Of a stretch of DNA of 64,000 nucleotides, positions 41,669 to 63,776 are shown one piece after another. The position numbers and the translations under genes are program-made. Below the pieces are notes generated by a model. That model saw only the letters and a list, made by a program, of their open reading frames with translations. It did not search any database and was not told where the DNA came from. The stretch comes from Echinicola pacifica DSM 19836 (GTDB lineage: Bacteria; Bacteroidota; Bacteroidia; Cytophagales; Cyclobacteriaceae): NCBI RefSeq assembly GCF_000373245.1, contig NZ_KB890739.1, forward strand, positions 286,441-350,440, read 5' to 3'. Within the stretch, counting starts at the first letter, position 1, and every line of letters starts with the position of its first letter.

Positions 41669-42781
41669 TTAGTTGGCGGCAGTATTAATTTTAGTATAAG
41701 GGATTTTCATCTTTATTTCCCAGGTACCTGAATCAAGGATCTTGATACCCCATCGGATATAGGCATGGTTTCGGATATTGCCAGTCACTGGGTCTCTGTA
41801 AGGAGCCCAGAATTCCTCCCATTCTTCGGGGGTTTTAGGACCCTTATCGGCCTCGTAAGCTTCCTTATCCACTGTGAAGGCATCACCTCTGGATAGATAA
41901 TACATCAAATAAGAGCTATTGCCCGTATAGTTTCTGCCGTATTGAGGGAATGGTGGGGCTGGAAGGAAAAAGGAGGTTTGCTGATCATCAGTAATGGTCT
42001 CCACCGAATTGTCATGATAGTTTTGCAGGTAGCTGGAGCCACTTGGGTAGAAGGTAACCTTATTAGGGTTTAGCGTTTCACCATAGCTATCTTGAATGAC
42101 CATATTGACTTGTACGGAGTAGGCAGGCTCCTCACTTATTTTCTGAATCGAAAAATAAGGATTCGTGCCATCCAGTGTACTAGGGATATTTTCGTCATTA
42201 GGCCCTGTGATCGTTCCGGTATGAGCGATATAGTTCCCATTGTCTGAGTCGAATAGAAGTCTGGATCTCATCTCCACGGGGAATTCTACCGGCTGGAAAG
42301 GCTGCATCTTAATGACAGCGAAGTCCTGCAGCAGTTTAGACCCTTTAATATTGGACACCTGTACATCTACCTTGAATATATCCCCTTCCACAAATTTGGT
42401 GGCTTGCGTAAAGGCAAACTCCCCACTTACCTTATTGATAAGGATGGAAGGCTCATTAGACAATTCCAGTTTCTGCTCTGCAAGAGCCAGAGTGGTGTCC
42501 GTATCACCGTTGAAGGATTCCTTCCAGATACGAATTTGATGCTCGTCCAGCAGTTCATTATTAGGATTGCCGTCCAAATCAGTAAATCCCACGATTTCCC
42601 ATTCCATTGGGGCGGTGGAGTTTTCGATGGCTGGTCTGGCCGCCACGGAGAATCCTCCGCGGGGCACATAGATGGTGTCTTGATTGGAGTGAATATCCTC
42701 ACTCAGGTAACCTATTTCTGGTGGAGTACAGGACACCACAGCCATATAGGATATGAATAGTATAAATAGTGTTTTTTTCAT
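41669..42781 (-). CDS. DUF5007-like lipoprotein of the SusCD operon
   Basis: The 370-residue product has a lipoprotein signal peptide (Cys18, AVVSC) and a beta-rich body with no catalytic motif. It lies at the place where SusE/SusF-type surface glycan-binding proteins usually sit, last in the operon after SusC, SusD and a fasciclin-domain protein. The assignment to DUF5007 rests on memory of this gene order and sequence flavour, so I hold it loosely. Binding of extracellular glycan at the outer surface is the likely role. Confidence 0.62.
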   Translation of the reverse strand: MKKTLFILFISYMAVVSCTPPEIGYLSEDIHSNQDTIYVPRGGFSVAARPAIENSTAPMEWEIVGFTDLDGNPNNELLDEHQIRIWKESFNGDTDTTLALAEQKLELSNEPSILINKVSGEFAFTQATKFVEGDIFKVDVQVSNIKGSKLLQDFAVIKMQPFQPVEFPVEMRSRLLFDSDNGNYIAHTGTITGPNDENIPSTLDGTNPYFSIQKISEEPAYSVQVNMVIQDSYGETLNPNKVTFYPSGSSYLQNYHDNSVETITDDQQTSFFLPAPPFPQYGRNYTGNSSYLMYYLSRGDAFTVDKEAYEADKGPKTPEEWEEFWAPYRDPVTGNIRNHAYIRWGIKILDSGTWEIKMKIPYTKINTAAN

Positions 42782-42808
42782 CTTTCAAGATATTTTCTGA
42801 TGGATGTA

Positions 42809-43444
42809 TTAATCCTTATAGTTGAATAGGATATGATTGCCCTGGAGGACATGGACCACACCATTGGTGGAGATAAGATTGGAGGTTCTCACCTGAACGA
42901 GCTCATCATCCGTGATATTATTCCAGAGATCCCATTCTTCACCCTGCTTGTAGGTGTAATAGACATACTCTGGGAAGCTACTCAGTTGAGCAGTGTATTC
43001 CTCTCTTGGCTCCAGGGAGATTCTTCTTTCTTCGCCATTTAGGGCGACCATGATATCTCCTTCAGGACTCATGTCCTCTCTGGTGATCTTACCAGGGAAG
43101 ATATAAGCCCCCATATATTTGTCCAAAGTATCCTTAGGGATGTCATTGACGGTAAATTCCGCTTCTGGATCCAGCTCTCGCATGCCCTTTAATATTTCAT
43201 CCACATACTTTTTTACAGATAGATTGTTTGGTGCAAATAGGGTAACCTCCCCATTGACCTCATCAATCAATCCTGCTCTCTCGATCAGCAAGGCTAAGGT
43301 GTCCATCTGAGGATGGGACTGCAGGAAGCTGAAGGTATCTGTGCCCAGCTCACCGCTGCTCACTCCGCCATCCACCAGGTAGTCGTTATCGACACAGGAG
43401 AATAAGCAAAGGGACAAGGCTATATAATAAATACAATATTTCAT
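42809..43444 (-). CDS. Fasciclin (FAS1) domain lipoprotein
   Basis: The 211-residue product has a lipoprotein signal peptide (Cys17) and a single FAS1-like domain: the segments VTLFAPNN near residue 70 and TNGVVHVLQGNHIL near the end are the H1/H2-type motifs. FAS1 proteins act in adhesion or glycan binding. It sits between SusD (24 bases) and the DUF5007-like gene (27 bases), so it is part of the uptake operon and probably surface exposed. Confidence 0.82.
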   Translation of the reverse strand: MKYCIYYIALSLCLFSCVDNDYLVDGGVSSGELGTDTFSFLQSHPQMDTLALLIERAGLIDEVNGEVTLFAPNNLSVKKYVDEILKGMRELDPEAEFTVNDIPKDTLDKYMGAYIFPGKITREDMSPEGDIMVALNGEERRISLEPREEYTAQLSSFPEYVYYTYKQGEEWDLWNNITDDELVQVRTSNLISTNGVVHVLQGNHILFNYKD

Positions 43445-43468
43445 ATTTCTTCTGGTTTTAAATTTGAC

Positions 43469-45007
43469 TTAAAGTCGTCCTTGCCAGTATTCCGTCTGGA
43501 CGATGGATGGGTTTCTGATGATAATATTAGGGGATACAGGCCAAAAGACTCCGTCCTTTGTCTTCCTGTCACTGTTCATCCAGGAGACCCCCTCGAAGTA
43601 ATCCATTCGGATTCTATCATAAGCCAATTGGCCTTCAGCGATTAGCTCGATCGCTCTTTCGTCAAATATCGCCTTGATCAAGCTTGTGCGATCCTGTGCG
43701 CCCTGATATGCAGGCACTCCGGCTTGGCTACGAACGAGATCCAGATCTGCGATGGCACTGCTATATTCTCCGGCTTTGGCATAAGCTTCGGCTCTTAATA
43801 GGTAAATATCCGCCAGTCTGAAGATCAGTATGTTGGACTCGGAGAATAAGGCATAAGCATCTTCAGAGTCAGGATCGTCTGAGCTCAAGGTGTATTTTAC
43901 AGGAAACGCATCAGTGTCCATGTCTTCATAGTCATAGAAGAACAATTCCTTCCGGATATCATTTTCACGTTCTGGTGCATTCATGAATTGAAATCCATAA
44001 AAGTCAGGGTTTCCTTTTGGTGCAGTACCATTATTACTTCCAAAGAAAGGCTGATTGACGGTCAATCCTGTATGGCTTCCATCTCCTGCGCTTAAGCGGA
44101 AAGATTCATTCATATTAGAATTGATATTGATTTCAAACAATCCTGTTTTAGACTGTCCTCTCATCATCTTCTCGAAGCCTTCCACGCCTTCACTTACATA
44201 GTTTACCAAGCTGGTATTGCTATTATTAATAACCGAAGTGGCGGCATCGATGCTCTCAGTGATCATCTGTGCGTTATCATTATCACGGCTAGCATACCAT
44301 AAAGTGACGTGCGCTTTGAGTGCTTCTGCACTGGCCTTATTGGCAGTGATGGCCCAGTTATTAGTACTTTGCGTAGCATAGTCCAATAGGTCGATGGACT
44401 TTTCTGTAGCTTCCAAGATATAGTCTAAGACTTCTTTTTCGTCTGAGCGACCGATCTCCATGATATATCCATCAGGGGTGATCAGCTGAGTAGAGCTCTC
44501 GATAGACTCATGGACGATAGGGACATCACCCCAGATTCTAGCCATATAGAAGTAAGATATAGCGCGCACAAAAGCGGCTTCACCTAGAATACGGTCTTTC
44601 TCCTGAGGCGTTTGGAATATCTCCACAGGCATATCTGCCACATATTGCTCAATGGTAAAAGCCCAGTTGGCTGAGCGGTAGAAATACTTCCACTCCTGGC
44701 TGTCACCTCTATAAGGGAGGTTATAGTCACCATTATTCTCTATATAGTTCACGATCCAAAACTGGCTGTCCATAAAGGTCATGGCGGGAAACTCACCCCA
44801 TAGCAGGAAGTTACTCTGATTGGTAAGGGCAGACTTAAGCAAGGCGTAAGACCCTGCCAATGCCTGCTCAGCCTCGCTTTGAGAGCTCCAGTACACGTCC
44901 GGATGGGTAATCGTAATCGGTTCCTGATCCAATAAGTCCGAGCAGCTGAAGAAAGCGGCGAACACTAATGAAAGGATCGGTATAGTTATAATTCTTGGTT
45001 TTTTCAT
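43469..45007 (-). CDS. SusD/RagB family outer-membrane lipoprotein
   Basis: SusD-like proteins form the lid of SusC and bind glycan at the cell surface. The 512-residue product has a lipoprotein signal (Cys22), the start of the family (LLDQEPITITHPDVYWSS), TPR-like helices with FRLADIYLLRAEAY, and the C-terminal IFDERAIELIAEGQ segment. The susC gene ends 12 bases upstream. Length is normal. Confidence 0.95.
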   Translation of the reverse strand: MKKPRIITIPILSLVFAAFFSCSDLLDQEPITITHPDVYWSSQSEAEQALAGSYALLKSALTNQSNFLLWGEFPAMTFMDSQFWIVNYIENNGDYNLPYRGDSQEWKYFYRSANWAFTIEQYVADMPVEIFQTPQEKDRILGEAAFVRAISYFYMARIWGDVPIVHESIESSTQLITPDGYIMEIGRSDEKEVLDYILEATEKSIDLLDYATQSTNNWAITANKASAEALKAHVTLWYASRDNDNAQMITESIDAATSVINNSNTSLVNYVSEGVEGFEKMMRGQSKTGLFEININSNMNESFRLSAGDGSHTGLTVNQPFFGSNNGTAPKGNPDFYGFQFMNAPERENDIRKELFFYDYEDMDTDAFPVKYTLSSDDPDSEDAYALFSESNILIFRLADIYLLRAEAYAKAGEYSSAIADLDLVRSQAGVPAYQGAQDRTSLIKAIFDERAIELIAEGQLAYDRIRMDYFEGVSWMNSDRKTKDGVFWPVSPNIIIRNPSIVQTEYWQGRL

Positions 45008-45019
45008 GTCTGTAGTAGT

Positions 45020-48000
45020 TTAGAATCTAGCGTCAATACCGATGAAAAATGTCTGAGCCTGCGGATAGCCATTGCCCAATACGTGGCCACGAGCATCCAC
45101 AAGTGAAGCATCTACGACCGCCTTAGAGCGCTGCCATTGGTACGGATTCAGTACGGAGAAGTAGGTTCTCAGTCGATCGAGCCCAAGGTTCTTGATGAAA
45201 GAATTCTTGCTGAAGGTATGACCAACAGATGCATTGGTGATCTTCCAGTAATCGCCGCTTTCTATCCATAAGGTTTGAGTGTCACGGAAGGCATAAAAAG
45301 GAGCCTCGCCGCCTCCAGCAGGAAATAATGCTGGGAATCGCACGCCTGCAGCGCCATCGCCCGGCTGCTCCCAGAAGGAGTATTCGCTCAGATCAGCTAG
45401 GCCAGAGGTCGCCCAGCCTGTGCCTCCACGGTCATAGCGGTCCATATAGCTATTCAGCACGGTATTCATGATGTCTGCACCGAAGGAGAACTGGCTATAG
45501 GCTTGGAAGTACCATCCTTTATAGCGAAGGTCGATATTGAAGTTACCTTGGATATCCGGAATTGGAGAGTAATCCAGAGCCATGATCAGGTCTCCTGTCT
45601 CGTCCAATAGGTAATCGCCGTTAATGTCTTCCCAGATAGGAAGCCCCGGACGGATGCTGGCCCAGGCGGATTTGCCCGTAAGCGCCTCACCTGTATAAGG
45701 ATTGACTGGCAGCTGCTCAATATTATCGATGATATAGTCATTGATGAATACCTTATACAGGTTCAATGGACGACCAACGATGAAGCCGTAAGTGCCGATC
45801 AGGTAATCACGATTCCCGTTTGGTAATTGGCTTACATAGTTTTCGTTTTTGGAGAAACCTGCCGTAAGGTCTAGCTTCCAGTCACTCACTCGTGGGAATA
45901 GGTTGTATTTCACCTGAGCTTCCCAGCCGTAGTTTAGCACTCCAGCTATATTAGCTTTGGCTTGGTTATAGCCTGAGTAAGAAGGGAATTCAATATCGAA
46001 AAACAACTTGTCAGTACTCTTATGGTAAGCATCGAAGGTGACATTCAGTCGCTGATCGAGCATCGCTAAGTCAAAACCAATATCCCACTGCTCTGACTGC
46101 TCCCAAGAGAGCTTGTCATTTCCTATGGAATTGTAGTTTGGTATCACGCCGGTCACTCCACCATAGGAGGCGACATTCATTTGGTTAGATCCATAGCCAG
46201 TTGCCAGACCGCCATATCCAAGGCTATAAGCCCCGAATCGCAGGTAGTTTTGGCTAAACTGCTTGCCATTTATCCCCCAGCTACCTCTGATCTTACCAAA
46301 GTCAAACCAGTTTCCTTTAATGTTTTCGAAGAATTTCTCATCCGTGAATACCCAGCCCGCTGATACAGAACCGAATTTTGCCCATCGTACGTCTTCACCG
46401 AATCTGGAAGATCCATCGGTACTGAAGTTGGCACTGAAGATATACTTGTCTCTAAACTTATAGTTTAATCGGGCATAATAGGATATCAAGGCGTTTTCAC
46501 TGATATCAGTATAGCCATCGATATTGTCTTTTTCATATCGATTGTTGATGACTTTGATGGCATCACTTCCGAAGCCTACTGCAGAGAGCCCCATGTCTTC
46601 GTATTTGTTATAGTCAATACGATTACCTGCGATAGCAATGAACTCATGATCACCGATGGTCTTCAGATAATCAAAGTAAAGATCGGAGGCCTGGTTCTTA
46701 CGAGTGTATAAGGCATAGGCGGCATAGCCGTCGCCATTCGGTCTGATGGAAGAAGGTTCGTAGAAGTTCTTCTTGTTTTGGTCGTACTGGAAGGTCAACT
46801 GGGAGTTTAATTTCAGTCCCTTTACGATCTTCAGCTGCGCAAAATTCGAGAACGTCACCTTAAACTGCTCATCGGTATTCAGCTTTTCTTCCAATTCGCC
46901 CTGTAAGGACTGGATTTTAGCTTCTGGAAGGTAGAATAGGGAGGAGTTCAGATTGTTTGGACTGGTAGGAAGACTGTTGTCTAGGTTATAAGACCCGCCA
47001 GCTGGGTTTCCTTGACCAGTTTTGTTTTCGGTGAAGGAGGTGTTTACCAGGAATTGATTGTTAAATCGCTTTCCTGCCTTAGTATTGATATGGGTGTTGA
47101 GGGTGTACCTGGTGAAGCCAGTCGCTTTCACCACTCCTTTGTCATCGTTATAGCCGAAGGACAAGCGGTAGTTAGAAGCTTCGCTTCCGCCTCTCATGCT
47201 TAGGTTATACCGTTGGGAGATTCCTGTCTGGTAGAATAAGCCCTGATAATCCACATTATTATTAAAAGCAGGGTTCAAGCTATCGGTAAGCATGATGGGC
47301 GTTTGGTTGGAAAGCAAGAAATCATGATCCCACCACTTATCGATCATTCCCATTTTTTCTCTTCTCTCTGCAGCTCCTGCCAGCATAGGCACTAGCTCAG
47401 GGATAGGCTGCACGCCAAAGCTCATGGAAAAGTCAAATTGTGGTTTGTCCAATGCTAAACCGCCCTTGGTTTTGATGATGATTACGCCATTTGCACCTCT
47501 GGATCCGTAGATCGCAGCAGCAGAGGCATCTTTTAAGATATCTATACTCTCTATATCATTTGGGTTTAGTGAGGCGAGGTAATCAGTATTGGACACGCCA
47601 TATCCTGCAAGGTCTTCCAAGGAGGTCTGTACTCCATCCACCACGTATAGTGGTGTACTGAAAGCCGTGAAGCGCTCGCCTCCGTCCAGTTCGCCAGAGA
47701 CGGCAGTACTACCCCTGATGACCAAGGCTCCCCTTGCTCCGGGTGCGCCACTGATATTGACCGTCTGGATCCCTGTACTTTGCGTGCCTATTAGGGTGGC
47801 GACGTTGGTAACCGGGATGGCTTCGAGTTGGTCACTTTTGATGCTACTTACGGAGCCCGTGACATCTCTTTTGATAACAGACTGGTAGCCGACTACCACT
47901 ACTTCATCAAGTTCCGATTCATTGGCCTTCAGGGCCACATCGATTACCTGCTGCGTGCCAACAGTCACTTCTGTTGGGGTGTATCCTAGAAAGGAATAGA

Positions 48001-48211
48001 TCAAGGTTTGACCTTGTTCTACGTTGATTTTATAATGGCCGTCCAAGTCGGAGGCCATTCCCTTGGTGGTTCCTTGGATTCGGATGTTTGCCATGGGGAT
48101 GGTCTCGCCCGTCTCCGAATCTGTCACCGTTCCACTCACGGTAATTGTCTGGGCTGATAGGAAGCCCATAAGACAAAAGGTGAATAAAAAAGTTAGTACA
48201 GTTTTAATCAT
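45020..48211 (-). CDS. SusC/RagA family TonB-dependent transporter
   Basis: The 1,063-residue product is the outer-membrane pore for glycan import. Order: signal peptide (residues 1-20), carboxypeptidase-regulatory-like domain (about 22-95), plug domain starting at DEVVVVGYQ (about 101), the SusC signature near residues 227-246 (DASAAAIYGSRGANGV), and the 22-strand barrel to the end (FFIGIDARF). It is first in the operon. No ECF sigma/anti-sigma genes lie upstream. Confidence 0.96.
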   Translation of the reverse strand: MIKTVLTFLFTFCLMGFLSAQTITVSGTVTDSETGETIPMANIRIQGTTKGMASDLDGHYKINVEQGQTLIYSFLGYTPTEVTVGTQQVIDVALKANESELDEVVVVGYQSVIKRDVTGSVSSIKSDQLEAIPVTNVATLIGTQSTGIQTVNISGAPGARGALVIRGSTAVSGELDGGERFTAFSTPLYVVDGVQTSLEDLAGYGVSNTDYLASLNPNDIESIDILKDASAAAIYGSRGANGVIIIKTKGGLALDKPQFDFSMSFGVQPIPELVPMLAGAAERREKMGMIDKWWDHDFLLSNQTPIMLTDSLNPAFNNNVDYQGLFYQTGISQRYNLSMRGGSEASNYRLSFGYNDDKGVVKATGFTRYTLNTHINTKAGKRFNNQFLVNTSFTENKTGQGNPAGGSYNLDNSLPTSPNNLNSSLFYLPEAKIQSLQGELEEKLNTDEQFKVTFSNFAQLKIVKGLKLNSQLTFQYDQNKKNFYEPSSIRPNGDGYAAYALYTRKNQASDLYFDYLKTIGDHEFIAIAGNRIDYNKYEDMGLSAVGFGSDAIKVINNRYEKDNIDGYTDISENALISYYARLNYKFRDKYIFSANFSTDGSSRFGEDVRWAKFGSVSAGWVFTDEKFFENIKGNWFDFGKIRGSWGINGKQFSQNYLRFGAYSLGYGGLATGYGSNQMNVASYGGVTGVIPNYNSIGNDKLSWEQSEQWDIGFDLAMLDQRLNVTFDAYHKSTDKLFFDIEFPSYSGYNQAKANIAGVLNYGWEAQVKYNLFPRVSDWKLDLTAGFSKNENYVSQLPNGNRDYLIGTYGFIVGRPLNLYKVFINDYIIDNIEQLPVNPYTGEALTGKSAWASIRPGLPIWEDINGDYLLDETGDLIMALDYSPIPDIQGNFNIDLRYKGWYFQAYSQFSFGADIMNTVLNSYMDRYDRGGTGWATSGLADLSEYSFWEQPGDGAAGVRFPALFPAGGGEAPFYAFRDTQTLWIESGDYWKITNASVGHTFSKNSFIKNLGLDRLRTYFSVLNPYQWQRSKAVVDASLVDARGHVLGNGYPQAQTFFIGIDARF

Positions 48212-48556
48212 AATCTTGTTTGTTTTCTCTTGAATGGTTTCGTAGGTAAAGGAAATCTTAGGCTGTGATTTCCTCTGTATTCAACTTCCTTTTGATAGTA
48301 TCCCCCTCGCGGCCCTGTGGTAGTTTTAGCCAGTTCTCCATGGCCCTGAGGGCTTATGAAGATTGGTGGTGGTAGGGATAGCTGGTGAGGCTATGGGCGA
48401 TAGGTGATGGTGTTTTTATCTTAGGAAGTACCGCTAGCTATTATTTTCTGTTTTAGGTAAATATCACCTAGTTCGAGGCACAATTATTTTGTTTTCAAAT
48501 CATTTCATTTTAGAGTTTTCTTGGATGATTATTTCGAAACGTTGCCTTAACAGCAA

Positions 48557-48615: not shown

Positions 48616-48784
48616 TGATGCTATTTGGCTAGTAATGTATATGAATTGAAAGTGTTTTAAGTGCATGAAAAACAAAAAGAAAGGTTATTGCTTTGGTTTT
48701 AAAGGCGTGTTTTTGGGATTTTGATTTAGCTGGGTTAAAAAATTTTATAAAAAATATTATTTCACGTAAAGATGACTAATATAG

Positions 48785-49419: not shown

Positions 49420-52560
<3,141 letters not shown>

Positions 52561-52572
52561 CCCCAAATATTT

Positions 52573-53865
52573 ATGAACAAATTTTTAAGTGCTTTATTGC
52601 TGGGTGGCTTGATTTCCTGCCAGCAGACCTCAACAGAGGTGTTCAAGGATGATTATGCTTCCAAAGTGGAAATCCCAATGGCTGGCAATGCCTACCTCAC
52701 CGAGGGCAAGGGTGCCAAGATCACCAAGAAAGGTCTCCGTGAATGGACTGCCGATGAGGCGGTGATAAGTGTCTATTTCAAAACCGAAAACCCTCAGAAA
52801 GCCTACCTTCAATTGCTGATGGAGGATACTGAAGGTCCCGCAGAATTGACGGTCAAAGTCGGCGATGAGCAGAAGACCATCCCCATTCCTGCGGAAGGTT
52901 CAGACACCCTGAACCTCGGACTGTTTGACTTGCCTGGTGGCTATGCCAAGGTGGATTTACAGGGAACCGAACGTTCCTCCTCAGAATTTGCGAGCATCAA
53001 TTCCTTAATCGTAAACTCCCCTTCGGAGGAGGAAATTACCTTCGTCCGGGATAATGAAAGCAATCGGTTTTACTGGGGACGGAGAGGACCATCCGTGCAC
53101 CTAAGCTATGCCTTGCCAAAGGATAAGGATTTCAAATGGTTTTATAACGAAATTACAGTGCCCAAAGGAGAGGATCCTAATGGTTCATATTATATGGCCA
53201 ATGGCTTTGGAGAAGGATATTTTGGCATTCAAGTGAATGGCGATGATGAAAGAAGGATACTCTTCTCCGTGTGGAGTCCCTTTCATACCGACAATCCGGA
53301 TGAAATTCCTGAAGACCAAAAAATAAAATTGCTCAAAAAAGGTGAAGAGGTGAACACCGGAGAATTTGGAAATGAGGGTTCTGGTGGGCAGAGTTTTAGA
53401 AGGTATAAGTGGATAACTGGTAATACCTATCAATTCCTGAACGCGGTGGAGCCAGATGGAAAAGGGAATACTATCTATACGGCGTATTTTTATGCCCCCG
53501 AAATAGGCGAATGGCAGCTAATCGCGAGCTTCCTAAGACCACAAACGGACACTTGGTATAAGCGACCTCATTCATTCCTGGAGAATTTCAATGATAAGAA
53601 TGGTTATATTGGCCGTAAGGCTCATTATGGAAACCAGTGGGCGCAGGATACTGATGGTAACTGGCATGAGCTGACTGAGGCGAGGTTTACAGGTGATGAT
53701 ATTGCCACTAGGGGATATAGAACAGACTACGCTGGAGGCGAGGAAAATGGCCAGTTCTTCCTGCAAAATGGAGGTTATTTTGCGCCAGCAGTTCCTTTAA
53801 ACTCAGAATATACAAGGGAGAAAACCAATAAGACTCCTCAAATAGATTTTGACGCACTTCCATAA
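52573..53865 (+). CDS. DUF5077/DUF3472-type lipoprotein
   Basis: The 430-residue lipoprotein (Cys16, GLISC) has an N-terminal beta-sandwich part (about residues 28-140, DUF5077-like) and a C-terminal part (about 145-410) resembling DUF3472, with the segment FRRYKWITGNTYQFLN. Such proteins are found beside glycan hydrolases in Bacteroidota; the activity is unknown and a carbohydrate-binding or hydrolase role is inferred. It is co-transcribed with the GH2 gene. Confidence 0.78.
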   Translation: MNKFLSALLLGGLISCQQTSTEVFKDDYASKVEIPMAGNAYLTEGKGAKITKKGLREWTADEAVISVYFKTENPQKAYLQLLMEDTEGPAELTVKVGDEQKTIPIPAEGSDTLNLGLFDLPGGYAKVDLQGTERSSSEFASINSLIVNSPSEEEITFVRDNESNRFYWGRRGPSVHLSYALPKDKDFKWFYNEITVPKGEDPNGSYYMANGFGEGYFGIQVNGDDERRILFSVWSPFHTDNPDEIPEDQKIKLLKKGEEVNTGEFGNEGSGGQSFRRYKWITGNTYQFLNAVEPDGKGNTIYTAYFYAPEIGEWQLIASFLRPQTDTWYKRPHSFLENFNDKNGYIGRKAHYGNQWAQDTDGNWHELTEARFTGDDIATRGYRTDYAGGEENGQFFLQNGGYFAPAVPLNSEYTREKTNKTPQIDFDALP

Positions 53866-54108: not shown

Positions 54109-56028
54109 CTATTCTTTTACTCGTAATCTTTTATTGTAGATCAGCTTATCTTCGATATAGACCTGGAAGAAATAGCGGCTTTTCGGGTAGCGGCTTAGAT
54201 CAAAAGTAAACTTTCCTTCCTGGAGATCTTGGTAGCGATGCTCCTCGACCACTTCACCACTTGGATCAGCCACTAGCTTGACAATTACGGTTTCTGGCTG
54301 ATTGGCCAAGAAGTCAAAGATGGTATAATCCTGGGCACGGGTAGGGAATACGCCCAGGGAGATTTCCTCAGATGGAATAGCATCAGGCTGATCACTTACG
54401 ATGAAATCATAGTTTATCTCATTACCGAAATCAGAGTCGAAGCTCTTTACGATCTCTCCATTGCCGTTAAGCAAAATTACGTTACCACGACCAGCCCTGG
54501 TCTTATACCAAAACTCGAGTCCATCTCCTGCGCTATCCGTGAGGTGCAGTCTGTAGTTTCCGGCAGGAAGGTGCAAGCTGTCCCTGTAGATGCTGTCCGC
54601 CTCCAAGCTGCCATGCTCCCTATGGTTTACCAGTTCCTGCTCAGAGTTGGTCAGGGTGTAGGCATTGTCCAAGGAGGCTTGGTTGGTTTGGATATAGAGT
54701 ATTAGCTCACCATTATGGACAGGAGCAGGCGAATAATGACTTTGGGATTTATTGTCTAGCGCATAGCCATCTTTCTTTCCATTAGGTTGGAGAAGTTCCA
54801 CCTGATAGTTTAGCGGACCTTGCTGCGGGATGAGGCCTTCCATGCGCAGGGTGTCAGTCTGACCTGGCGCCAGGAGGCCCGTCCAGGTATAGCTGGCCGG
54901 TTTTGCATTGGCTTGACCATGCTTGATTTGTACTTTTTTTAGAGGCTCGCTTCCATTATTTTTGATCACAATGGTAGGACCAAAAGCGGCGGGATTTTGC
55001 CGGCTATGAATGGCTAGATCAGAAGGGATGATGATCTCTTCCAGGCTTACGTCATTCTTAGATTCGTAGTGCTTGTATTCTATTAGGTATGCGGATATCA
55101 ATTCGCTGGCGCTGGGTTTCGGAGCAGAATAGTCTTCCATCTGCAGCTGCAGGCTATGGCTGGCTTCGGACAGCTTCACATCATAGAGGTCGGGCTGAAT
55201 CAGATCGCCAGGGCACCAGTTAGCGCGATCAAAGATCCAGGTTCCCGCCTGGGGGTATAGGGGATTGCTGCCGCATTGTTTCCACATTTGTCGGCTGGAG
55301 AGGATTTTTCCATCGAAGAGGAAATCCCTGAATTTATCGCAGAATTCCCCGCAGCCATCAGGTCTATCCATGCCATGTCCGGTTTGGATGACTCTGAATC
55401 GTCCAAGCTCAGTGGCCGGATTTTTGGAGATGGTGAAGGGAGCGAGGCTTTCATTTATAGGGTTGTCATCATTGCCGTAGGCGTAAGAACCCTGGTACAC
55501 CTTATGGATGGCTACGGGCTCCATGCTTGGCTTGCCTTCGATCAGCTCAAAAGCAAGGGTCACCTTCCATCCACGGTCCTGATTGGGCTCGTATCCGGTG
55601 TGCTTGTATTCGATCTCGACACTGTCTCGAAGGATGAGGCTGAAGTCGGTTACATCCACCTTCCATTCGAATTCCCAATCCTTATCAAAAGCACCTCCAT
55701 AAGGGGTGAGCATTCTGGCTATTTCATAATCTAGCATTTCGCCTTGGAGGCCACCTTGGCGTTTTATGGTGATATGGTCCACATAGTCCCAGTCCGCACA
55801 GCGCATATTGTCTGGACAGGCAAATTTGATCTTCAATAGGATCTGCCGTATGGGGACCTCTTTTTCTGGGAACCTGGCCCAGTGGGTATAGCTATTTTCG
55901 CCTTTGGAGGGATCAGTGACCACCTCAATATTATCATGACTGATCACCCTGAGGGTGTCGCCTGATTGGGCATGGACTAGAGAGGTGCTGAATAATAAGA
56001 TGAAAAGAAATAAATGAATTTTTCTCAT
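54109..56028 (-). CDS. PNGase F-like peptide-N-glycosidase with type IX secretion tail
   Basis: PNGase F removes whole N-glycans from glycoproteins by cutting the Asn-GlcNAc amide bond. The 639-residue product starts with a signal peptide (1-21). Residues 30-290 match the Elizabethkingia enzyme: Asp81 in CADWD equals its Asp60, and Glu228 in GCGEFC equals its Glu206. Cys71/Cys77, Cys226/Cys230 and Cys252/Cys272 match its three disulfides. The residue corresponding to its Glu118 appears to be His143. About 270 extra residues follow, then a type A sorting tail of type IX secretion, indicating release or surface anchoring. Confidence 0.88.
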   Translation of the reverse strand: MRKIHLFLFILLFSTSLVHAQSGDTLRVISHDNIEVVTDPSKGENSYTHWARFPEKEVPIRQILLKIKFACPDNMRCADWDYVDHITIKRQGGLQGEMLDYEIARMLTPYGGAFDKDWEFEWKVDVTDFSLILRDSVEIEYKHTGYEPNQDRGWKVTLAFELIEGKPSMEPVAIHKVYQGSYAYGNDDNPINESLAPFTISKNPATELGRFRVIQTGHGMDRPDGCGEFCDKFRDFLFDGKILSSRQMWKQCGSNPLYPQAGTWIFDRANWCPGDLIQPDLYDVKLSEASHSLQLQMEDYSAPKPSASELISAYLIEYKHYESKNDVSLEEIIIPSDLAIHSRQNPAAFGPTIVIKNNGSEPLKKVQIKHGQANAKPASYTWTGLLAPGQTDTLRMEGLIPQQGPLNYQVELLQPNGKKDGYALDNKSQSHYSPAPVHNGELILYIQTNQASLDNAYTLTNSEQELVNHREHGSLEADSIYRDSLHLPAGNYRLHLTDSAGDGLEFWYKTRAGRGNVILLNGNGEIVKSFDSDFGNEINYDFIVSDQPDAIPSEEISLGVFPTRAQDYTIFDFLANQPETVIVKLVADPSGEVVEEHRYQDLQEGKFTFDLSRYPKSRYFFQVYIEDKLIYNKRLRVKE

Positions 56029-56058
56029 TGATAGTTGGTCTTGATAATATAAAACTAT

Positions 56059-56091
56059 AATAGCCTCCCTAGGGTAATTAGGGAGGCTATT
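56059..56091 (-). terminator. Hairpin downstream of the sulfatase gene
   Basis: A perfect 13-bp stem (56059-56071 with 56079-56091) and a 7-base loop, 28 bases past the sulfatase stop and upstream of the PNGase gene. The T run behind it on the minus strand is weak. Confidence 0.65.
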
Positions 56092-56119
56092 GAAATTCCT
56101 TAAAGGTCTGGTATGGCAA

Positions 56120-57526
56120 TTATTGATTTGCGAGTTTCAGCTGGATCATTTCCTGATTCCAATCAGTATGAAGCTTTAATAGCTCCTTCAAAATCTCAGG
56201 ATTCTGCTTGGCCACATTGGTGGTTTCGGTGGAGTCTTTGGACATATCCACGAGGTATAATTTGTCCTCATCTCCGAAGGTTAGCTCTTTTTCAGAGTCC
56301 CAGGGGTTGCCCAGCAGTTTCCAGTTTCCCTTTCGCACGGCCCATGAGTCGGTGGTGCTTTCCGGATCGCCAGTGGCCCAGTGCAGCACCTCATGTTGGC
56401 TGGGTGCATTTATATCATTGATGATAGGCATTAGGCTTTTGCCATCGATCTCCTCTTTATTTGGGATGTCGGTGCCTGTGATTTCTGCCAAGGTAGGGAG
56501 CCAGTCGATACTGTTGGCCATCTGATTTCTCACCGCCATAGCAGGGACGGCTTTGGGGTAGCGGATCATGGCTGGCACACGGATGCCACCTTCCAGCATG
56601 CAGAATTTTGCGCCATGGTAAATGCCATTACTTCCACCACCAAAATAAGCGCGTTCTTCTGTGCTATGCCCATGGTCAGACTGATAGACAATAATGGTAT
56701 TGTCCAGCTCACCTGTGGCCTCCAAATGGTCTAGTACCTCACCGATCATCTCGTCATAAGTGCTGATAAATGCGGCATAGAGCTGTCTGGATTCCGGTAG
56801 ATCTTTATAGTATTCCAGCCATTTTGGATCACCCTGATAAGGGTAGTGAGGCATATTGATCGCCCAATAAATAAAGAAAGGATCTTCCTTATCCTTGGCC
56901 GTAAATTTCTTTACTTCATCCACCATCAAGTCCCCAAAAAACTCACCTGGACGGTATATTTCTTCCTCATTCTGGTATAAGTCATGCATATTGGGGCCAT
57001 GCCAAAAAAAGAAATGAGAGTAATTGTCTATACATCCACGTTGATGACCAAAGAAATAATCGAAGCCCTGACCATTAGGGAGTTTTTCAGGGGAATGGCC
57101 TAAGTGCCATTTGCCAATTAATGCCGTTTCATAGCCATCAGCCTTGAAGACTTCCGCCATGGTGATTTCATCGGTTGGCAAGCCTGATTTATATTCCGGG
57201 TCACTATGTGGAGGGGATACATTTCCAAATAGCCTGGCGTTTTGGTTGTATTTGGCCGTCAGTAAACTTGCTCTGGACGGGGAGCATACAGGAGCTGCAG
57301 CATAAAACTGCGTAAATCGAACTCCCTCATTGGCGATTCGGTCCAAGTTTGGGGTGTGGAGGTCGGTGGAGCCATATGCATGGGTATCCACTGTGCCTTG
57401 GTCATCTCCTAAAATAACTAGGATATTGGGTTTTTTTAGGCTCTGGCTGATCGCTTTAGGCTGTAAGCCCATCAGTAGAAGAGTGATGAGAACGAGGTTC
57501 AGCCAAGGTTTTACTTGAGTTTGCAT
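56120..57526 (-). CDS. Sulfatase (arylsulfatase family, S1)
   Basis: It hydrolyses sulfate esters, probably on glycans in the periplasm. The 468-residue product has a signal peptide (to about residue 28), the metal-binding start NILVILGDDQG, and the sulfatase signature CSPSRASLLT at residues 81-90, where Cys81 becomes formylglycine; the GKWHLGH motif follows near residue 140. No maturase gene is in the window, so the modification enzyme must be elsewhere. A -7 box is present upstream, and it is separate from the PNGase gene by a hairpin. Confidence 0.94.
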   Translation of the reverse strand: MQTQVKPWLNLVLITLLLMGLQPKAISQSLKKPNILVILGDDQGTVDTHAYGSTDLHTPNLDRIANEGVRFTQFYAAAPVCSPSRASLLTAKYNQNARLFGNVSPPHSDPEYKSGLPTDEITMAEVFKADGYETALIGKWHLGHSPEKLPNGQGFDYFFGHQRGCIDNYSHFFFWHGPNMHDLYQNEEEIYRPGEFFGDLMVDEVKKFTAKDKEDPFFIYWAINMPHYPYQGDPKWLEYYKDLPESRQLYAAFISTYDEMIGEVLDHLEATGELDNTIIVYQSDHGHSTEERAYFGGGSNGIYHGAKFCMLEGGIRVPAMIRYPKAVPAMAVRNQMANSIDWLPTLAEITGTDIPNKEEIDGKSLMPIINDINAPSQHEVLHWATGDPESTTDSWAVRKGNWKLLGNPWDSEKELTFGDEDKLYLVDMSKDSTETTNVAKQNPEILKELLKLHTDWNQEMIQLKLANQ

Positions 57527-58100
57527 GATAATTATGGTTTTATTAGCCCGTAAGTAGGGATATAGTCCTAATACAAAGCTAACTTTTTATTTTATTTAAG
57601 TAAATAATCTAGACTTCTTTTATTTTTTTCAATAAATAAGCCAAGTGTTCCTCCTCATTTCTTTTGTTTTTGACCGCTAAGGAAGGCTGTAATCGGGTGA
57701 AGTAGAGTAATTTAAAGCTTTTTATTTAGCGATGAATGGTTTTCTACTTAATATTATTTTGAGTAGGGGCTGGGCTTAGGTTTGAGGGCTCGGTTAGGCT
57801 GGCCATGGCTATCCCAGCTTTTATAGGATCTAATCGCCATTCCCTGAGGTATAAATATTGGTTTTATTTAATGATTAAAATCAATCCTAAGAGAGTTCTA
57901 CTTAGTCAAATAAAATTATATCCATGGTGGATATTCTGTTGGGAAAAGAAATGATTTGAGGATATTCTGAAATTTTTCTTTATAAATACCAATAAAACGT
58001 TTCTTCTGAATTAATTTAATGGTTTAAACTGTGGTTAGGCAGGCTGAAGGGCAAGCTAAGCCACGGTTAAAATCTATTAAGCCAAATAATTATACCCGAA
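57527..58100. other. Divergent gene-free interval
   Basis: It holds the sulfatase promoter candidate, a small dyad (57918-57923 with 57929-57934) and a hairpin in the leader of the DUF1080 gene (58031-58064). No coding frame. Confidence 0.5.
57574..57581 (-). promoter_or_regulatory. Promoter -7 box of the sulfatase gene
   Basis: TAGCTTTG on the minus strand fits TAnnTTTG; it is about 48 bases from the ATG. A -33 box is not clear. Confidence 0.4.
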
Positions 58101-58967
58101 ATGAAAAAAATATTTTTGCCTTTGGCAATCGTTGCTTGTATGTCCGTCGCTTGTTCTTCTTCGGATAACAAAACCGCTGTGGAAGAACCCCTTGCAGATG
58201 TTTCCGGTCAATGGAAATCCTTATTTAATGGAAAGGATATGGACCATTGGAAGATAAAAATTGCCAAGCATGAGCTGGATGAAAACTATGGAAATACCTT
58301 CCGTGTGGAGGATGGAATGCTGAAAGTTCGGTACGATGAATACACCGATTTTGATAAGCAGTATGGACATATCTTTTATGATGAATCATTTTCGGCCTAT
58401 CTACTTCATTTGGAATACCGCTTTGTGGGTGATCAGGCGCCTGCCGGAGAAGGCTGGGCACTGCGTAATAGTGGAGCGATGCTTCATGGCCAGGATCCGC
58501 GTACCATGCTGAAAGATCAGAATTTCCCGATCTCCATCGAAGGGCAGTTGCTCGGTGGTGATGGTGAGCATGATCGTACCACCTCTAATCTCTGCACGCC
58601 AGGGACGAATGTGGTGATGGAAGGAGAGCTGTTTACGCCTCATTGTGTGAAATCCACTTCCAAGACCTATCATGGAGAACAATGGGTGTCGGCAGATTTC
58701 TTAGTTCTAGCGGATTCAGTAGTTCAGCATATCGTGGAGGGTGATACTGTTTTGACGTATTATTCCCCTCAGATCGGCGGCGGCAATGTGGATCCTGTGG
58801 ATCCAGCGATTAAGCAAGATGGCAAAATGCTTACCGAAGGATTTATCTCCTTGCAAAGCGAAAGTCATCCGATAGATTTTAGAAAAGTGGAGATTTTCGA
58901 TCTTGCACCTTATATGAAGGATAAAAATGAACTTAAAAAGGTCCTTCAGCAGCTACGAGAAAGGTAA
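58101..58967 (+). CDS. DUF1080 (3-keto-disaccharide hydrolase-like) lipoprotein
   Basis: The 288-residue lipoprotein (Cys18, MSVAC) consists of one concanavalin-like beta-sandwich of the DUF1080 group: the pattern begins at WKSLFNGKDMDHWKI and ends with ISLQSESHPIDFRKVEI. Characterised DUF1080 members hydrolyse 3-keto-glycosides; whether this one does is unknown. It is the only plus-strand gene among minus-strand neighbours and has a long leader. Confidence 0.85.
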   Translation: MKKIFLPLAIVACMSVACSSSDNKTAVEEPLADVSGQWKSLFNGKDMDHWKIKIAKHELDENYGNTFRVEDGMLKVRYDEYTDFDKQYGHIFYDESFSAYLLHLEYRFVGDQAPAGEGWALRNSGAMLHGQDPRTMLKDQNFPISIEGQLLGGDGEHDRTTSNLCTPGTNVVMEGELFTPHCVKSTSKTYHGEQWVSADFLVLADSVVQHIVEGDTVLTYYSPQIGGGNVDPVDPAIKQDGKMLTEGFISLQSESHPIDFRKVEIFDLAPYMKDKNELKKVLQQLRER

Positions 58968-59073
58968 AATACTATTGTAAAAAAACATATGCTAGCAAGT
59001 AGCATTTATAAATCATTCATTCTCCTACTATGGGAATGAAAGAAAAATAGCACAAAACTACAGTAACGAAGTT

Positions 59074-59108
59074 TCAGTCTGGCAGTAGGAATCCTGCTGC
59101 CAGACTGA
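59074..59108. repeat. Long inverted repeat between convergent genes
   Basis: A 16-bp stem with one G-T pair (59074-59089 with 59093-59108), three-base loop, GC-rich. No T run on either side. It is 8 bases from the stop of the minus-strand small gene and could end transcription or protect RNA ends. Confidence 0.6.
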
Positions 59109-59115
59109 GATTATA

Positions 59116-59376
59116 TCAACGTCTCTGGTTTTGTGCTTCTTTTTTTATCTTATCTTTTTGAGGCTTTTTATAGAAAAAATACCAAGCCAAACCAAGAACA
59201 AGGACCACTAAAGGTAGTACGATATAGATAATTACCTCCGCACTGTCATTGGTGTTAATACCCGAATCTTCCACCATTGGAGTTCCCTTTGGGAGCTGAC
59301 CAAAAGCCTGAGTAGCAGATACAATTACACCCCAAATAGACAAATAGATCGACTTAAAATTGATTAGTGGTTTCAT
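59116..59376 (-). CDS. Small exported protein with one membrane helix, unknown function
   Basis: No family is recognised. The 86-residue product has a signal-like N-terminal helix (about residues 8-28, ending AFGQ), a short polar stretch (PKGTPMVEDSGINTNDSA), a strong membrane helix near residues 47-67, and a very basic C-terminus. The ATG at 59376 (start KPLINFKSIYL) is chosen; a second ATG nine bases upstream is also possible. It lies 173 bases after the DUF2264 gene stop on the same strand and might be co-transcribed with the glycan genes. Confidence 0.55.
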   Translation of the reverse strand: MKPLINFKSIYLSIWGVIVSATQAFGQLPKGTPMVEDSGINTNDSAEVIIYIVLPLVVLVLGLAWYFFYKKPQKDKIKKEAQNQRR

Positions 59377-59558
59377 GATAAACAATGGTTTTGTATTAGC
59401 TGGTTTTTATCCTTAAAAGATATAACTAAGTTGGTTTCGCTAAACTTAAACCTCTAATAGTTATATATTAGACTATTTAGCAAAAGCGATACCAGTTTTG
59501 GCAATCGCTGAATAAAACCATGTTTTTTTTACCATAAAACTAGTTTTTATTACTCAAT

Positions 59559-60812
59559 TTAGAAAGAAATCGCATGATCGGCGGGCACGGTGACTCCTGC
59601 CCAGGCCTTCTTAGCCGTCCAATCTTCCGCCTCATTGGTCCAGAAAGCGTGCGTTTCGGGTAAGCCTAATGGCAAAAATCCCAAAGTGCATAGATACAGA
59701 CTTCCGGTAGAGATATAGCGATCACCCATTTCTGGTTGATGTCCACAAAATCCAATCTGAAGCCAGCCATTTTCATCGTAGGTTCCGGGAGCTTCAAATT
59801 GTCTATTGATGATAGCTCCTAAGGCTGCCCGTACCTGGCCACGGCTTACATGCTCCGGTAAGCTGTCTTGCAGGGCCACTTCCGCCAAAGGCTGAAAGGC
59901 GCCCACTCTATAGGTAATCGATCTGCCAATAGGTGGGTAAGTGCCTTCAGGAGAGATAAGTCGCTCCTGCTGTTCGGCAAATCGAATCATCCTTTTCTGA
60001 ACTTTCTCGTATAATTCCTGGTAGCTTTTCCTTTTCTCAGCCGCAATCTTCAAAATCTGCTGCATCATTGGCTGGATCACGTAGCCATTATAGTAGTCCA
60101 TATGGAAATCTTTCCCATCTCCATACCATCCATCTCCCACGTACCATTCATCATGTTTCTTTACAGCAAAATCAATTCGCATAAAATCACCCTGATCACC
60201 TGCAAAGAATAAAAAAGCATCCAGCATGGCACCGAAAAGCAGCCAGTTGTTATAATAAGGAGGAATGGCCTCTTTTTGATTTTTGATCTCTTGGATAAAT
60301 TGCTGCTTTACCTTATCAGGGAGTGGTGCCCACAGGGCTTCTGGAGCGCGCATAATCCCATGCACCAAAAAGGCCCCATCCACCAGTGGCTGGGCGCCTT
60401 TGGTCCAGTTGAGGTAATCGGGAGAATCAGGATTCACGCCTGCGGCAATGCTCAGTCGCGCTTTTTCTGCCAATTCTTTACGCATTTCACCTTCCTTAGT
60501 ATCCTGCTCGGGAAGGTTTAGCCAAGGGGCCAGCCCCGCCAAAGTCCTGCCAAGAGCCTCCAGATGGGTCACGTCTTTTCTGCCTCCATAAGGATCGGAA
60601 GGCGTCTCCACGGGCATGGTGGAGATGAGTTTTTCCTCGCTCATTGCGGTGAGCACCGGGTAAGCGATTTTATATAAGGTATTGGCCCAGTATTCCCTTT
60701 GGTCTGAGCGGAGGGCTTTGCTGCTACTTTCCTCAGCCCGTAAGGTATGCGGGACAAGACTACCTATCGCTCCCATGGCGGGAATGAATTTTACAAATGA
60801 TCTTCTATTCAT
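59559..60812 (-). CDS. DUF2264 domain protein, Tat-type signal
   Basis: The 417-residue product begins with a twin-arginine signal (NRRSFVKFIP), so it should be exported folded through Tat. The remainder is the alpha-barrel-like DUF2264 domain with conserved WLLFGAM and DGWYGDG segments. Members are suspected glycoside hydrolase or lyase-like enzymes; the reaction is not known. The start is 12 bases after the stop of the GH20 gene, so they form one operon. Confidence 0.85.
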   Translation of the reverse strand: MNRRSFVKFIPAMGAIGSLVPHTLRAEESSSKALRSDQREYWANTLYKIAYPVLTAMSEEKLISTMPVETPSDPYGGRKDVTHLEALGRTLAGLAPWLNLPEQDTKEGEMRKELAEKARLSIAAGVNPDSPDYLNWTKGAQPLVDGAFLVHGIMRAPEALWAPLPDKVKQQFIQEIKNQKEAIPPYYNNWLLFGAMLDAFLFFAGDQGDFMRIDFAVKKHDEWYVGDGWYGDGKDFHMDYYNGYVIQPMMQQILKIAAEKRKSYQELYEKVQKRMIRFAEQQERLISPEGTYPPIGRSITYRVGAFQPLAEVALQDSLPEHVSRGQVRAALGAIINRQFEAPGTYDENGWLQIGFCGHQPEMGDRYISTGSLYLCTLGFLPLGLPETHAFWTNEAEDWTAKKAWAGVTVPADHAISF

Positions 60813-60824
60813 GCTAAGTGTTTT

Positions 60825-62426
60825 TTAAGGTTTGAATACTGGTTCGGGTGTTGATGCAGGGTCTTTTGGGTCAAAGTAATATAAATCTGCTCGTTCATAT
60901 AGAAGGGTGTGTCCGGATAGTCGGATTAGGAATTCCTCATAATTTCGCTGAGGTACTGCGGTCCATGCCGCCTCGGCCATAGCCGCAATCCTCGGGAAAG
61001 TGAGGTAATCCAAGCGCTCTTCATTATGCACGGTCTCTGTCCATAGATTGGCTTGCAAGCCTTTGATGAGGTGTTGCTGTGACTTGGCGATTCCTAACTT
61101 CTCCATACTGAAGGCATAAACTTGCTCTAAAGGGCTGAAGGCTCCCGCCCATTTTCTGCCATATTGGTCCTGCTCCTGCTGGACAAAATCAAAATACAAG
61201 GGGATCCTTGGGCAGAGAATAGTGGGGATATTATTGTCCAGTACCAATTGCAGCTGTTTGGGCTGATCATGTCGCCACCACATGAGGAGGGTCTTATCAG
61301 ACGGTAAACCAGCATCAGCCATCTCATCCCAAGCCAGTAGGGTACTATTCATTGCAAATAATGAGTCTGCCATGCGCTGCATAAAGTAGTTTTCTACCGC
61401 CTTCAGGTTGGGGAGTGATTCTCGTTGCATCAGGGACTTTACCTCTGGGTCTGACTTCCATCCCTCATTGCCAAAACTCACCTCATCACCACCTAAGTGG
61501 ATCATACCTGAGGTGAATAAGCTGTTTACTTCTTTGAGAATAGTGGTCAGATACTGGTAAGTCCCTTCCTTGGCGGGGTGAAAAGTGAATTCGGGGTATT
61601 TCTCGGAGCCTCCACCGCTATATTCGGGGTAGGCCATATTGGCGGCAGTCGCATGGCCAGGCATATCTATTTCTGGGATAATGGTGATCTTACGCTCCGC
61701 CGCATAGCGTACGATTTCCTTGATGTCTTCTTGAGAATAATATTCTGAATCCAAATTAGGATTGGATTGGTTGCCGATTCCGCCTACCAGGGCTAGCCGG
61801 GGATACTCCTTGATCTCAATCCTCCAGCCAGGAGCATCAGTGAGATGCCAGTGGAAGGTGTTGAGCTTATAGAATGCCATCCAGTCAAGCAGTTTCTTGA
61901 CGGTTTCTTTGCCAAAGAAGTGACGGGATTCGTCCAGCATATACCCTCTCCATCCAAATAAAGCTGCATCCTGAAGGGTCCAGCAGAGAATATTGATTTT
62001 CCCCTCTTCGACAGCACTAGCCTCTGCAAGCTGTAGGACAGAAATCAATCCATGAAATATTCCTTCCTCTTTGGCAGCAGAAATAATGATTTGATTAGGT
62101 TGGATTTGGAGGCTATACCCCTCTGTCTGATTAGGGTCTAGCTGAAGTAGAATGTCGGATTGAGAATCCTTGCCACGACTGATCGTCATCCCTTTTCGGC
62201 GAAGTAGCTCAGTTTGGAAGTAATAAAGTTCGTCCGTCAGCGCTTCATCTGTCGTGAAGATGGTGCTCGCATCAGTCAGAGAAAAAGTGCCATTATTGAG
62301 CTCAAAGCTTGCTGGAAAGGGAATAATTTGGGGTTGGATCTGAGCTATAGCCATGGTGCTAGACCAAAAAAATGCTATGACAATCAGTATTTTAAAGGGC
62401 TTATGGTTAACAGGGGCTGGATGCAT
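60825..62426 (-). CDS. Beta-N-acetylhexosaminidase, glycoside hydrolase family 20
   Basis: It removes terminal beta-GlcNAc or GalNAc using substrate assistance. The 533-residue exported protein (signal peptide to about residue 29) has the GH20b helper domain (residues 32-150) and a TIM barrel with the catalytic pair Asp314-Glu315 in HLGGDEVSF; the LDESRHF and MPGHATA motifs are also present. It is first in an operon with the DUF2264 gene and lies behind the GH88 terminator. Confidence 0.94.
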   Translation of the reverse strand: MHPAPVNHKPFKILIVIAFFWSSTMAIAQIQPQIIPFPASFELNNGTFSLTDASTIFTTDEALTDELYYFQTELLRRKGMTISRGKDSQSDILLQLDPNQTEGYSLQIQPNQIIISAAKEEGIFHGLISVLQLAEASAVEEGKINILCWTLQDAALFGWRGYMLDESRHFFGKETVKKLLDWMAFYKLNTFHWHLTDAPGWRIEIKEYPRLALVGGIGNQSNPNLDSEYYSQEDIKEIVRYAAERKITIIPEIDMPGHATAANMAYPEYSGGGSEKYPEFTFHPAKEGTYQYLTTILKEVNSLFTSGMIHLGGDEVSFGNEGWKSDPEVKSLMQRESLPNLKAVENYFMQRMADSLFAMNSTLLAWDEMADAGLPSDKTLLMWWRHDQPKQLQLVLDNNIPTILCPRIPLYFDFVQQEQDQYGRKWAGAFSPLEQVYAFSMEKLGIAKSQQHLIKGLQANLWTETVHNEERLDYLTFPRIAAMAEAAWTAVPQRNYEEFLIRLSGHTLLYERADLYYFDPKDPASTPEPVFKP

Positions 62427-62457
62427 AATGGATATTAGAATAAGAGGTGAAAATATA

Positions 62458-62485
62458 AAAAAGGGCCAGGTAAAACCCAGCCCTT
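62458..62485 (-). terminator. Intrinsic terminator of the GH88 gene
   Basis: On the minus strand a stem (62480-62485 with 62461-62466, extended by an inner pair) is followed by a T run. It lies about 58 bases past the GH88 stop codon. Confidence 0.7.
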
Positions 62486-62543
62486 AAATCATAAGAATTA
62501 GGAGGTGACACTTTCGTAGTCAATCGGCCAGGAAGCTATTCGC

Positions 62544-63776
62544 TTATTTGCCTAGGTCCCATTCTTTGTATCTTTTTAAGGCTTCTATATAATAGTAGTC
62601 CGCATAGGTCAATGGGACGTCCACCTCGGACTTATGAGGAAGAGAGCCCACACTGTGCTTTAGGATAAACCCACCATTGTCGCCTTTAGCGGCAGTGTAT
62701 TTGTCAGAAGCGAGGCTGACGATCATTGTCTCAGCATCTGCGAGGTATTTTTTGGCCTTATCGGTATCCTTCACATATTTGGATAGCTCCAATAATGCGG
62801 AAGCATTGATGGCCGCGGCTGAGGCATCTCTGTAGGTAGAGTCAGAAGGGCCGTCGTTGAAGTCCCAATAAGGAACCATGTCAGCAGGTAGATTAGAGTG
62901 ACCGAGGATGAAGTCGGCGATTTTTACAGCCTGATCGAGGTAAGCCTGATCTTTGGTCTCTCTGTACATTACCGTAAAGCCATAGAGTCCCCAGGATTGA
63001 CCTCTCGCCCAGGCTGACTCATCAGCCATGCCTTGATGTGTTCTCTTCTCGACCACAGAGCCATCTGCAGGGTCATAGTCGATCACGTGAAAGGAGCTAT
63101 TGTCCTCACGGAAGTGATTAGCAATCGTGCTATCCGCATGAGCTAGGTTGATGTCGATATATCGGTCATCGCCTCCCGCTTCAGCTGCCCAGAATAGGAA
63201 CTCTAGGTTCATCATATTGTCAATGATCACTGGATATTTCCACTTGCCATGATCCCAGGACTTGATCAGTCCCACTTCCTCATGAAATCGCGTCGCCAGA
63301 GATTCAGCACCCTTAAGCATGATGTCTTTATATTGCTCATTGCCGGTGATGCGGTAGGCATTGCCGAAGCTGCAATAAAGCATGAATCCCAAATCATGGG
63401 TTCCTTCGTTATTCTTTTCCTTTTCTAAAATCGTAAGTTTCTGCTCCGCCAATTGTAGTAAGGAGGAATCACCAGACATTTCAAAAAGATAAAGGAGCGT
63501 TCCCGGGTAAAAACCCGAGGTCCACCAGCCCGTACCGGAGGTTACTAGTTGCCCGTTTTCGAAAGTTCTAGGAAGCTTGTCCTCAGGAGTATGCTCGCTA
63601 AGAAACTTATATTGAGCTACGGCCTTATCAATTTCTGTTTGAATAAACTCATCGGTGATTTTGTTTTCAGCGACCGTTTGTTCGGTTTGAGTATCATTGG
63701 CGGGCTCGGATTTGCACGCACCAAAAGCTAGAAATATAGGGATTAAAAGTCCGAATTGGTAAAAGCTGTTTTTCAT
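62544..63776 (-). CDS. Unsaturated glucuronyl hydrolase, glycoside hydrolase family 88
   Basis: GH88 enzymes hydrate and open the 4,5-unsaturated uronic acid left by polysaccharide lyases. The 410-residue lipoprotein (Cys21, AFGAC) is an alpha/alpha barrel; the catalytic Asp128 (HDLGF) and Asp186 (DNMMN) match the two Asp residues of the Bacillus enzyme, and RGQSWGLYGF is conserved. A lyase gene is expected nearby but none is visible in the window. It is followed by a terminator. Confidence 0.93.
   Translation of the reverse strand: MKNSFYQFGLLIPIFLAFGACKSEPANDTQTEQTVAENKITDEFIQTEIDKAVAQYKFLSEHTPEDKLPRTFENGQLVTSGTGWWTSGFYPGTLLYLFEMSGDSSLLQLAEQKLTILEKEKNNEGTHDLGFMLYCSFGNAYRITGNEQYKDIMLKGAESLATRFHEEVGLIKSWDHGKWKYPVIIDNMMNLEFLFWAAEAGGDDRYIDINLAHADSTIANHFREDNSSFHVIDYDPADGSVVEKRTHQGMADESAWARGQSWGLYGFTVMYRETKDQAYLDQAVKIADFILGHSNLPADMVPYWDFNDGPSDSTYRDASAAAINASALLELSKYVKDTDKAKKYLADAETMIVSLASDKYTAAKGDNGGFILKHSVGSLPHKSEVDVPLTYADYYYIEALKRYKEWDLGK

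Follow-up and report, generated by a model that had tools for sequence, protein, structure and literature searches.

The window analyzed here is a stretch of 64,000 nucleotides from Echinicola pacifica DSM 19836 (contig NZ_KB890739.1, positions 286,441 to 350,440). By gene-order comparison, the 22 kb between positions 41669 and 63776 are made up of four units (A to D) that have different homes among related Echinicola genomes. Unit A (41669..48211, minus strand), delimited by Pfam matches, gaps, and the relatives, comprises four genes on that strand, all identified by Pfam: SusC (45020-48211), SusD (43469-45007), a fasciclin-domain lipoprotein (42809-43444), and a DUF5007 lipoprotein (41669-42781), with intergenic gaps of 12–27 bp. 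Seven further Echinicola genomes carry the four-gene block (70–83% identity) at a different chromosomal place and outside the GAG locus described below, from which it is separated by ~410 kb in G004 and ~380 kb in G008. Its neighbors in the four genomes whose surroundings were inspected are recombinase-, dehydroquinase-, and other housekeeping-type genes (names judged by eye from sequence). Unit B (49444..53865, plus strand; Pfam and NCBIfam) pairs a LacZ-type GH2 beta-galactosidase (49444-52560, plus strand; Glyco_hydro_2_C, E 1.7e-92), with intact GNE and SEY motifs, and a DUF5077-DUF3472 lipoprotein (52573-53865, plus strand). This GH2-DUF3472 pair is conserved in the relatives beside a different ECF-FecR-SusC locus, that is, another PUL.

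Unit C (54109..57526, minus strand) holds an S1 sulfatase (56120-57526, minus strand; Pfam, E 2.5e-64; signature C-S-P-S-R) followed, after a gap of 91 bp, by a PNGase F-like glycoamidase (54109-56028, minus strand; N-glycanase_C, E 2e-15). Ten of 11 Echinicola genomes carry PNGase F, and the sulfatase adjoins it in every case in which the flank was read. The pair also occurs in Echinicola genomes devoid of an orthologue of the unit D dehydratase (GDH, see below), and PNGase F itself is found in G003, G005, and G006, which are without a GDH of the 75% type. The N-terminal N-glycanase Pfam domain gave no match at 1e-3; a pairwise alignment to PNGase F (PDB 1pnf/3pms) spans this region. The catalytic region is alignable to those structures and keeps the W-D and GCxE(F/W)C motifs, whereas the window protein is longer, with an extra C-terminal region, has a sulfatase as partner, and is independent of the GAG locus. 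The W-D and GCGEFC motifs, in which we take the catalytic residues D60 and E206 to lie, are kept in all five Echinicola copies aligned. The pairing suggests that desulfation is coupled to N-glycan release.

Membership of the GAG locus begins only with a DUF1080 lipoprotein of the 3-keto-disaccharide hydrolase family (58101..58967, plus strand; Pfam), which adjoins the GDH/GH20 end of the locus and is 72–78% identical in the relatives, its position unchanged. Unit D (59559..63776, minus strand) follows, and the locus continues past the right end of the window. Its first gene in the direction of transcription encodes a GH88 unsaturated glucuronyl hydrolase with a lipoprotein-like signal (62544..63776, minus strand; PF07470, E 9e-10; PDB 3wiw, E 3.5e-113). 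A GH20 beta-N-acetylhexosaminidase with an intact HLGGDE motif (60825..62426, minus strand; PF00728, E 1.9e-105; PDB matches) lies 117 bp downstream. The third gene, 12 bp further downstream, encodes GDH, a DUF2264 (formerly GH154) beta-D-glucuronate dehydratase homologue (59559..60812, minus strand; PF10022, E 2.6e-119; PDB 9o4u, E 8.9e-125). Because they share a strand and are separated by such short gaps, GH88, GH20, and GDH look like one transcription unit. A first-pass annotation of this region had named PNGase F, a sulfatase, GH2, GH20, and GH88, all of which were recovered by Pfam, PDB, and motifs, although it omitted the GDH and DUF1080 genes. In NCBIfam, GDH, GH88, PNGase F, and the window sulfatase had no match that reached the cut-off. 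The order GDH-GH20-GH88 is kept in six other Echinicola genomes and is beyond chance, whereas the order of the 22 kb as a whole is not shared. G003 and G006 retain GH20-GH88 with no GDH orthologue, so GDH is dispensable in these two genomes.

The DUF2264 domain of GDH is full length (PF10022 1-353 of 353), and the nearest solved structures are the beta-D-glucuronic acid dehydratases 9o4u and 9nwf (E ~1e-124). The enzyme from Bacteroides caccae, BcGDH (formerly GH154), was reported in 2025 to be without glycosidase activity; it dehydrates a saturated non-reducing terminal GlcA to a 4,5-unsaturated residue that is next cleaved by GH88 (PMC12269599). The window protein is ~49% identical to BcGDH, has an N-terminal RRSF motif, and carries all ten of the active-site residues mutated in that study (E74, R78, N176, N177, W178, F181, Y229, R285, Y289, and Y354), with a numbering offset of 5, the sole one of three tried that matched the residue types in the paper. 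We infer that it acts as a dehydratase on terminal GlcA. The statement of the first-pass annotation that GH88 needs a lyase was accordingly too strong as worded: GDH, two genes downstream in the same run, could supply the substrate. A GH88 with no visible lyase is usually read as a sign of an incomplete locus, and a neighboring dehydratase is an alternative source of its substrate. The window genome shows a single GDH copy. At L085:6551-12183 and L086:7714-13348, a second type of Echinicola locus combines GH88 with a GDH paralogue (~50% identical) and DUF1080.

The window itself contains no polysaccharide lyase, as had been noted in the first pass, and the rightward extension it proposed for a lyase and a regulator reached both, the regulator gene being present but broken. 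A divergent spacer of 254 bp in all, starting at 63777..64000 in the window, separates GH88 from the right arm, which lies beyond the window on the plus strand of the same contig (C2). It consists of a cut ECF sigma gene (350471-350941; ORF, Pfam), a PL33 lyase (351020-352981; PDB, Pfam) starting 580 bp past the window end, and three S1 sulfatases (353105-354634, S1_15-like; 354631-356196; and 356251-357717). PL33 enzymes act on GlcA-containing polymers, mainly GAGs. The heparinase II/III-type protein encoded here matches the BtPL33HA/BcPL33HA structures (E 7e-148), and the catalytic and platform residues R103, H154, N238, W239, W242, Y291, H444, Y470, and F475 are all conserved. Of these, N238, Y291, and H444 are the invariant ones, and because a Trp at position 242 is the marker of PL33_1 (residue roles follow PMC11848413), the lyase is assigned to this subfamily, whose members vary in substrate among hyaluronan, chondroitin sulfate, and heparosan. 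It shares the subfamily and every catalytic and platform residue checked with the hyaluronan lyases BtPL33HA (BT4410) and BcPL33HA (PMC11848413) but is ~40% identical to them. PDB names, the only guide to subfamily here, place the first sulfatase nearest to GalNAc-6-O-sulfatase and S1_15 chains, with the other two further away from this group; the C/S-x-P-x-R signature is found in all four sulfatases, one in the window and three in the right arm. The sigma gene, between GH88 and PL33, breaks off within region 4 (Pfam 9-33 of 54), where its DNA similarity to the relatives also ends (L006 6938). No FecR gene follows it. A complete PUL would have an intact cognate regulator, and here the regulator is truncated.

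Six relatives (G001, G004, and G007-G010) have DUF1080 and GDH-GH20-GH88, with a divergent arm in the order ECF1-FecR1-SusC1-SusD1-[PL8]-PL33-[S1]-ECF2-FecR2-SusC2-SusD2-S1b-S1c, that is, with two ECF-FecR-SusC-SusD cassettes. PL8 is found in five of the six (all except G008), with Pfam confirmation in G010. G006 has the same locus minus GDH, and G003 has been independently reduced: GDH, PL33, PL8, and SusCD1 are missing, and a sigma remnant of 62 residues is left. The window genome retains the sulfatases and a PL33 with ~52% identity to that of the relatives; FecR1-SusC1-SusD1-PL8 and ECF2-FecR2-SusC2-SusD2 are missing from its GAG locus. Orthologues of SusC1 and SusD2 were not found in this genome, the best matches to SusC1, SusD2, and PL8 being 37, 36, and 25% identical, respectively, while among the relatives SusC1 and SusD2 are 81–93% identical to those of G010 (except SusC1 in G007, 52%). 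The sole clear PL8 homologue of the window genome, the 25% match, sits beside housekeeping and acyltransferase-like genes and was rejected as a part of the GAG locus. A complete PUL would also have a co-inherited SusC/SusD pair; the adjacent pair (43469-48211) lies elsewhere in the relatives.

Homology, active-site conservation, gene order, and the absence of transporter orthologues lead us to consider it likely, with activities, substrate, and cycle all predicted from these, that GDH-GH20-GH88, PL33, and the three sulfatases would be the enzyme part of a chondroitin/hyaluronan-type GAG locus which works as an exo-cycle and has lost its transporter and regulator, units A, B, and C being separate neighbors. 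The sulfatases would remove sulfate and PL33 would cleave the chain, leaving unsaturated ends from which GH88 could take off the unsaturated uronate. GH20 would then take off the exposed beta-linked hexosamine and expose a saturated GlcA, which GDH would dehydrate into a 4,5-unsaturated residue that GH88 could take once more. Such a GDH, GH88, GH20 cycle could move along a chondroitin/hyaluronan-type oligosaccharide with no beta-glucuronidase. A comparable dehydratase and GH88 cycle for chondroitin is encoded by PUL25 of B. caccae (PL35, GH88, GH109, and BcGDH; PMC12269599). The window locus differs from it in having PL33 (and PL8 in the relatives) for PL35, GH20 for GH109, sulfatases inside the locus, and no SusCD. 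Since BcPUL25 is without a GH20, the place of this enzyme in the cycle is drawn from linkage chemistry; it would fill the place of GH109, whose hexosaminidase step the BcGDH study was unable to confirm on chondroitin (PMC12269599).

The target named in the first pass, one sulfated polymer or glycoprotein containing uronate and hexosamine, holds in part, as a partly sulfated uronate/hexosamine polymer is likely for the right-hand block; one locus for one substrate is not supported, as units A, B, and C lie elsewhere or in another order in the relatives. Hexosamine is beta-linked in chondroitin and hyaluronan and alpha-linked in heparan. A heparosan/heparan-type or non-animal uronate polymer as the target of unit D seems unlikely to us, although the nearest solved GH88 is 3wiw from Pedobacter heparinus, presumably a heparin-type enzyme. 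Heparosan lyases are also found within PL33_1 (PMC11848413). Against this, GH20 cleaves a beta-linked hexosamine, which fits chondroitin and hyaluronan, and the PL8 in the locus of the relatives and the S1_15-like sulfatase also favor this pair.

Because the sigma gene breaks off in region 4, as a deletion would leave it, the window genome probably carries a decayed GAG locus that arose by loss rather than gain. A gain of the SusCD/PL8 cassettes by the relatives, with a simpler ancestral state preserved in the window genome, appears distinctly improbable; the proteins of the window genome stand at about the same distance from every relative (by sequence identity), as a gain would allow, but G003 has its own short remnant of this sigma gene, which argues against a gain. 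What remains of the decayed locus probably works on oligosaccharides imported by other systems, or is still decaying. The window genome shows that a GAG locus can shed its transporters and regulator yet retain its enzymes. The first-pass annotation had the SusCD pair encoded together with the enzymes, which is not supported, since unit A is at another chromosomal place in the relatives; the pair has no support as the GAG transporter, and a single-substrate locus over 41.7–63.8 kb is rejected on the gene order of the relatives. The proposal that PNGase F, sulfatase, GH2, GH20, and GH88 act on one sulfated glycoprotein or proteoglycan via the adjacent SusCD is highly improbable, for although the genes are contiguous here and a GAG block bereft of its own SusCD could have come to rely on the neighboring pair, A, B, and C are apart from D or reordered in the relatives and C persists in genomes with no GDH orthologue. 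The region is a patchwork.

Across the 148 genomes of the family sample, 24 have a GDH match. Among GDH loci with at least 45% identity, GH88 lies within 10 kb at 11 of 22, against 0.14 expected; the 11 include several close-relative genomes, and independent events are therefore fewer. The coupling of GDH to a hydrolase is further supported by natural fusions at three Bacteroidota loci. A single ORF of 790 aa in a Rikenellaceae MAG (L009:99-2471, plus strand) is a GH88-GDH (DUF2264) fusion, and two other Bacteroidota have PF07470-GDH fusions of 772 and 763 aa (L129:577-2895 and L130:1028-3319). The hydrolase halves of the latter two had no significant BLAST similarity to the GH88 of the window and are probably GH105-like. 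The GDH halves keep nine (L009), nine (L129), and eight (L130) of the ten active-site residues. At two more loci (L010:9998-12906 and L134:9014-13208) KduI and a short-chain dehydrogenase come directly after GDH, as enzymes that would be expected to process 5-keto-4-deoxyuronate next; L134 also has GH88 ahead of GDH. A presumed GH20 hexosaminidase in the cluster of G156 was discarded, as Pfam gives GH31 instead. Another ORF (L132:369-2645, minus strand) joins GH88 to an alginate-lyase-type domain, a lyase here taking the place of the dehydratase in the GH88-GDH fusion.

Dehydratase-based removal of uronate is already known in ulvan (PMC8511951) and chondroitin (PMC12269599). In the ulvan system, the dehydratase P29_PDnc acts with GH105 and, likewise, a saturated terminal uronate is dehydrated and then taken by an unsaturated uronyl hydrolase, but the protein family is unrelated and the polymer different (PMC8511951). 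GH154-GH88 sets have been noted in haloarchaea (PMC13260240), and our literature search returned no paper naming DUF2264 and few discussing GH154 activity. Co-localization is reported for BcGDH, and a text search of that paper found no mention of hydrolase-GDH fusions (PMC12269599). What is new is the combination of PL33/PL8, GH20, GDH, and GH88 in a marine genus, decayed in the window genome. We see even prospects for a broader reading, in which dehydration followed by hydrolysis (GDH with GH88 or another PF07470 enzyme) would widely stand in for beta-glucuronidase in Bacteroidota, with at least two fusion events (one involving GH88 and one or more a GH105-like partner), and the window would hold a transporter-less version with GH20 as the hexosaminidase. 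If this is true, the window version would complete the step that lacked confirmation in B. caccae. The fusions make the 2025 proposal on former GH154 proteins directly testable in one protein. Elsewhere in the window, a 1169-aa ORF with no Pfam match (15330-18839) directly follows a large histidine kinase (11595-15320).
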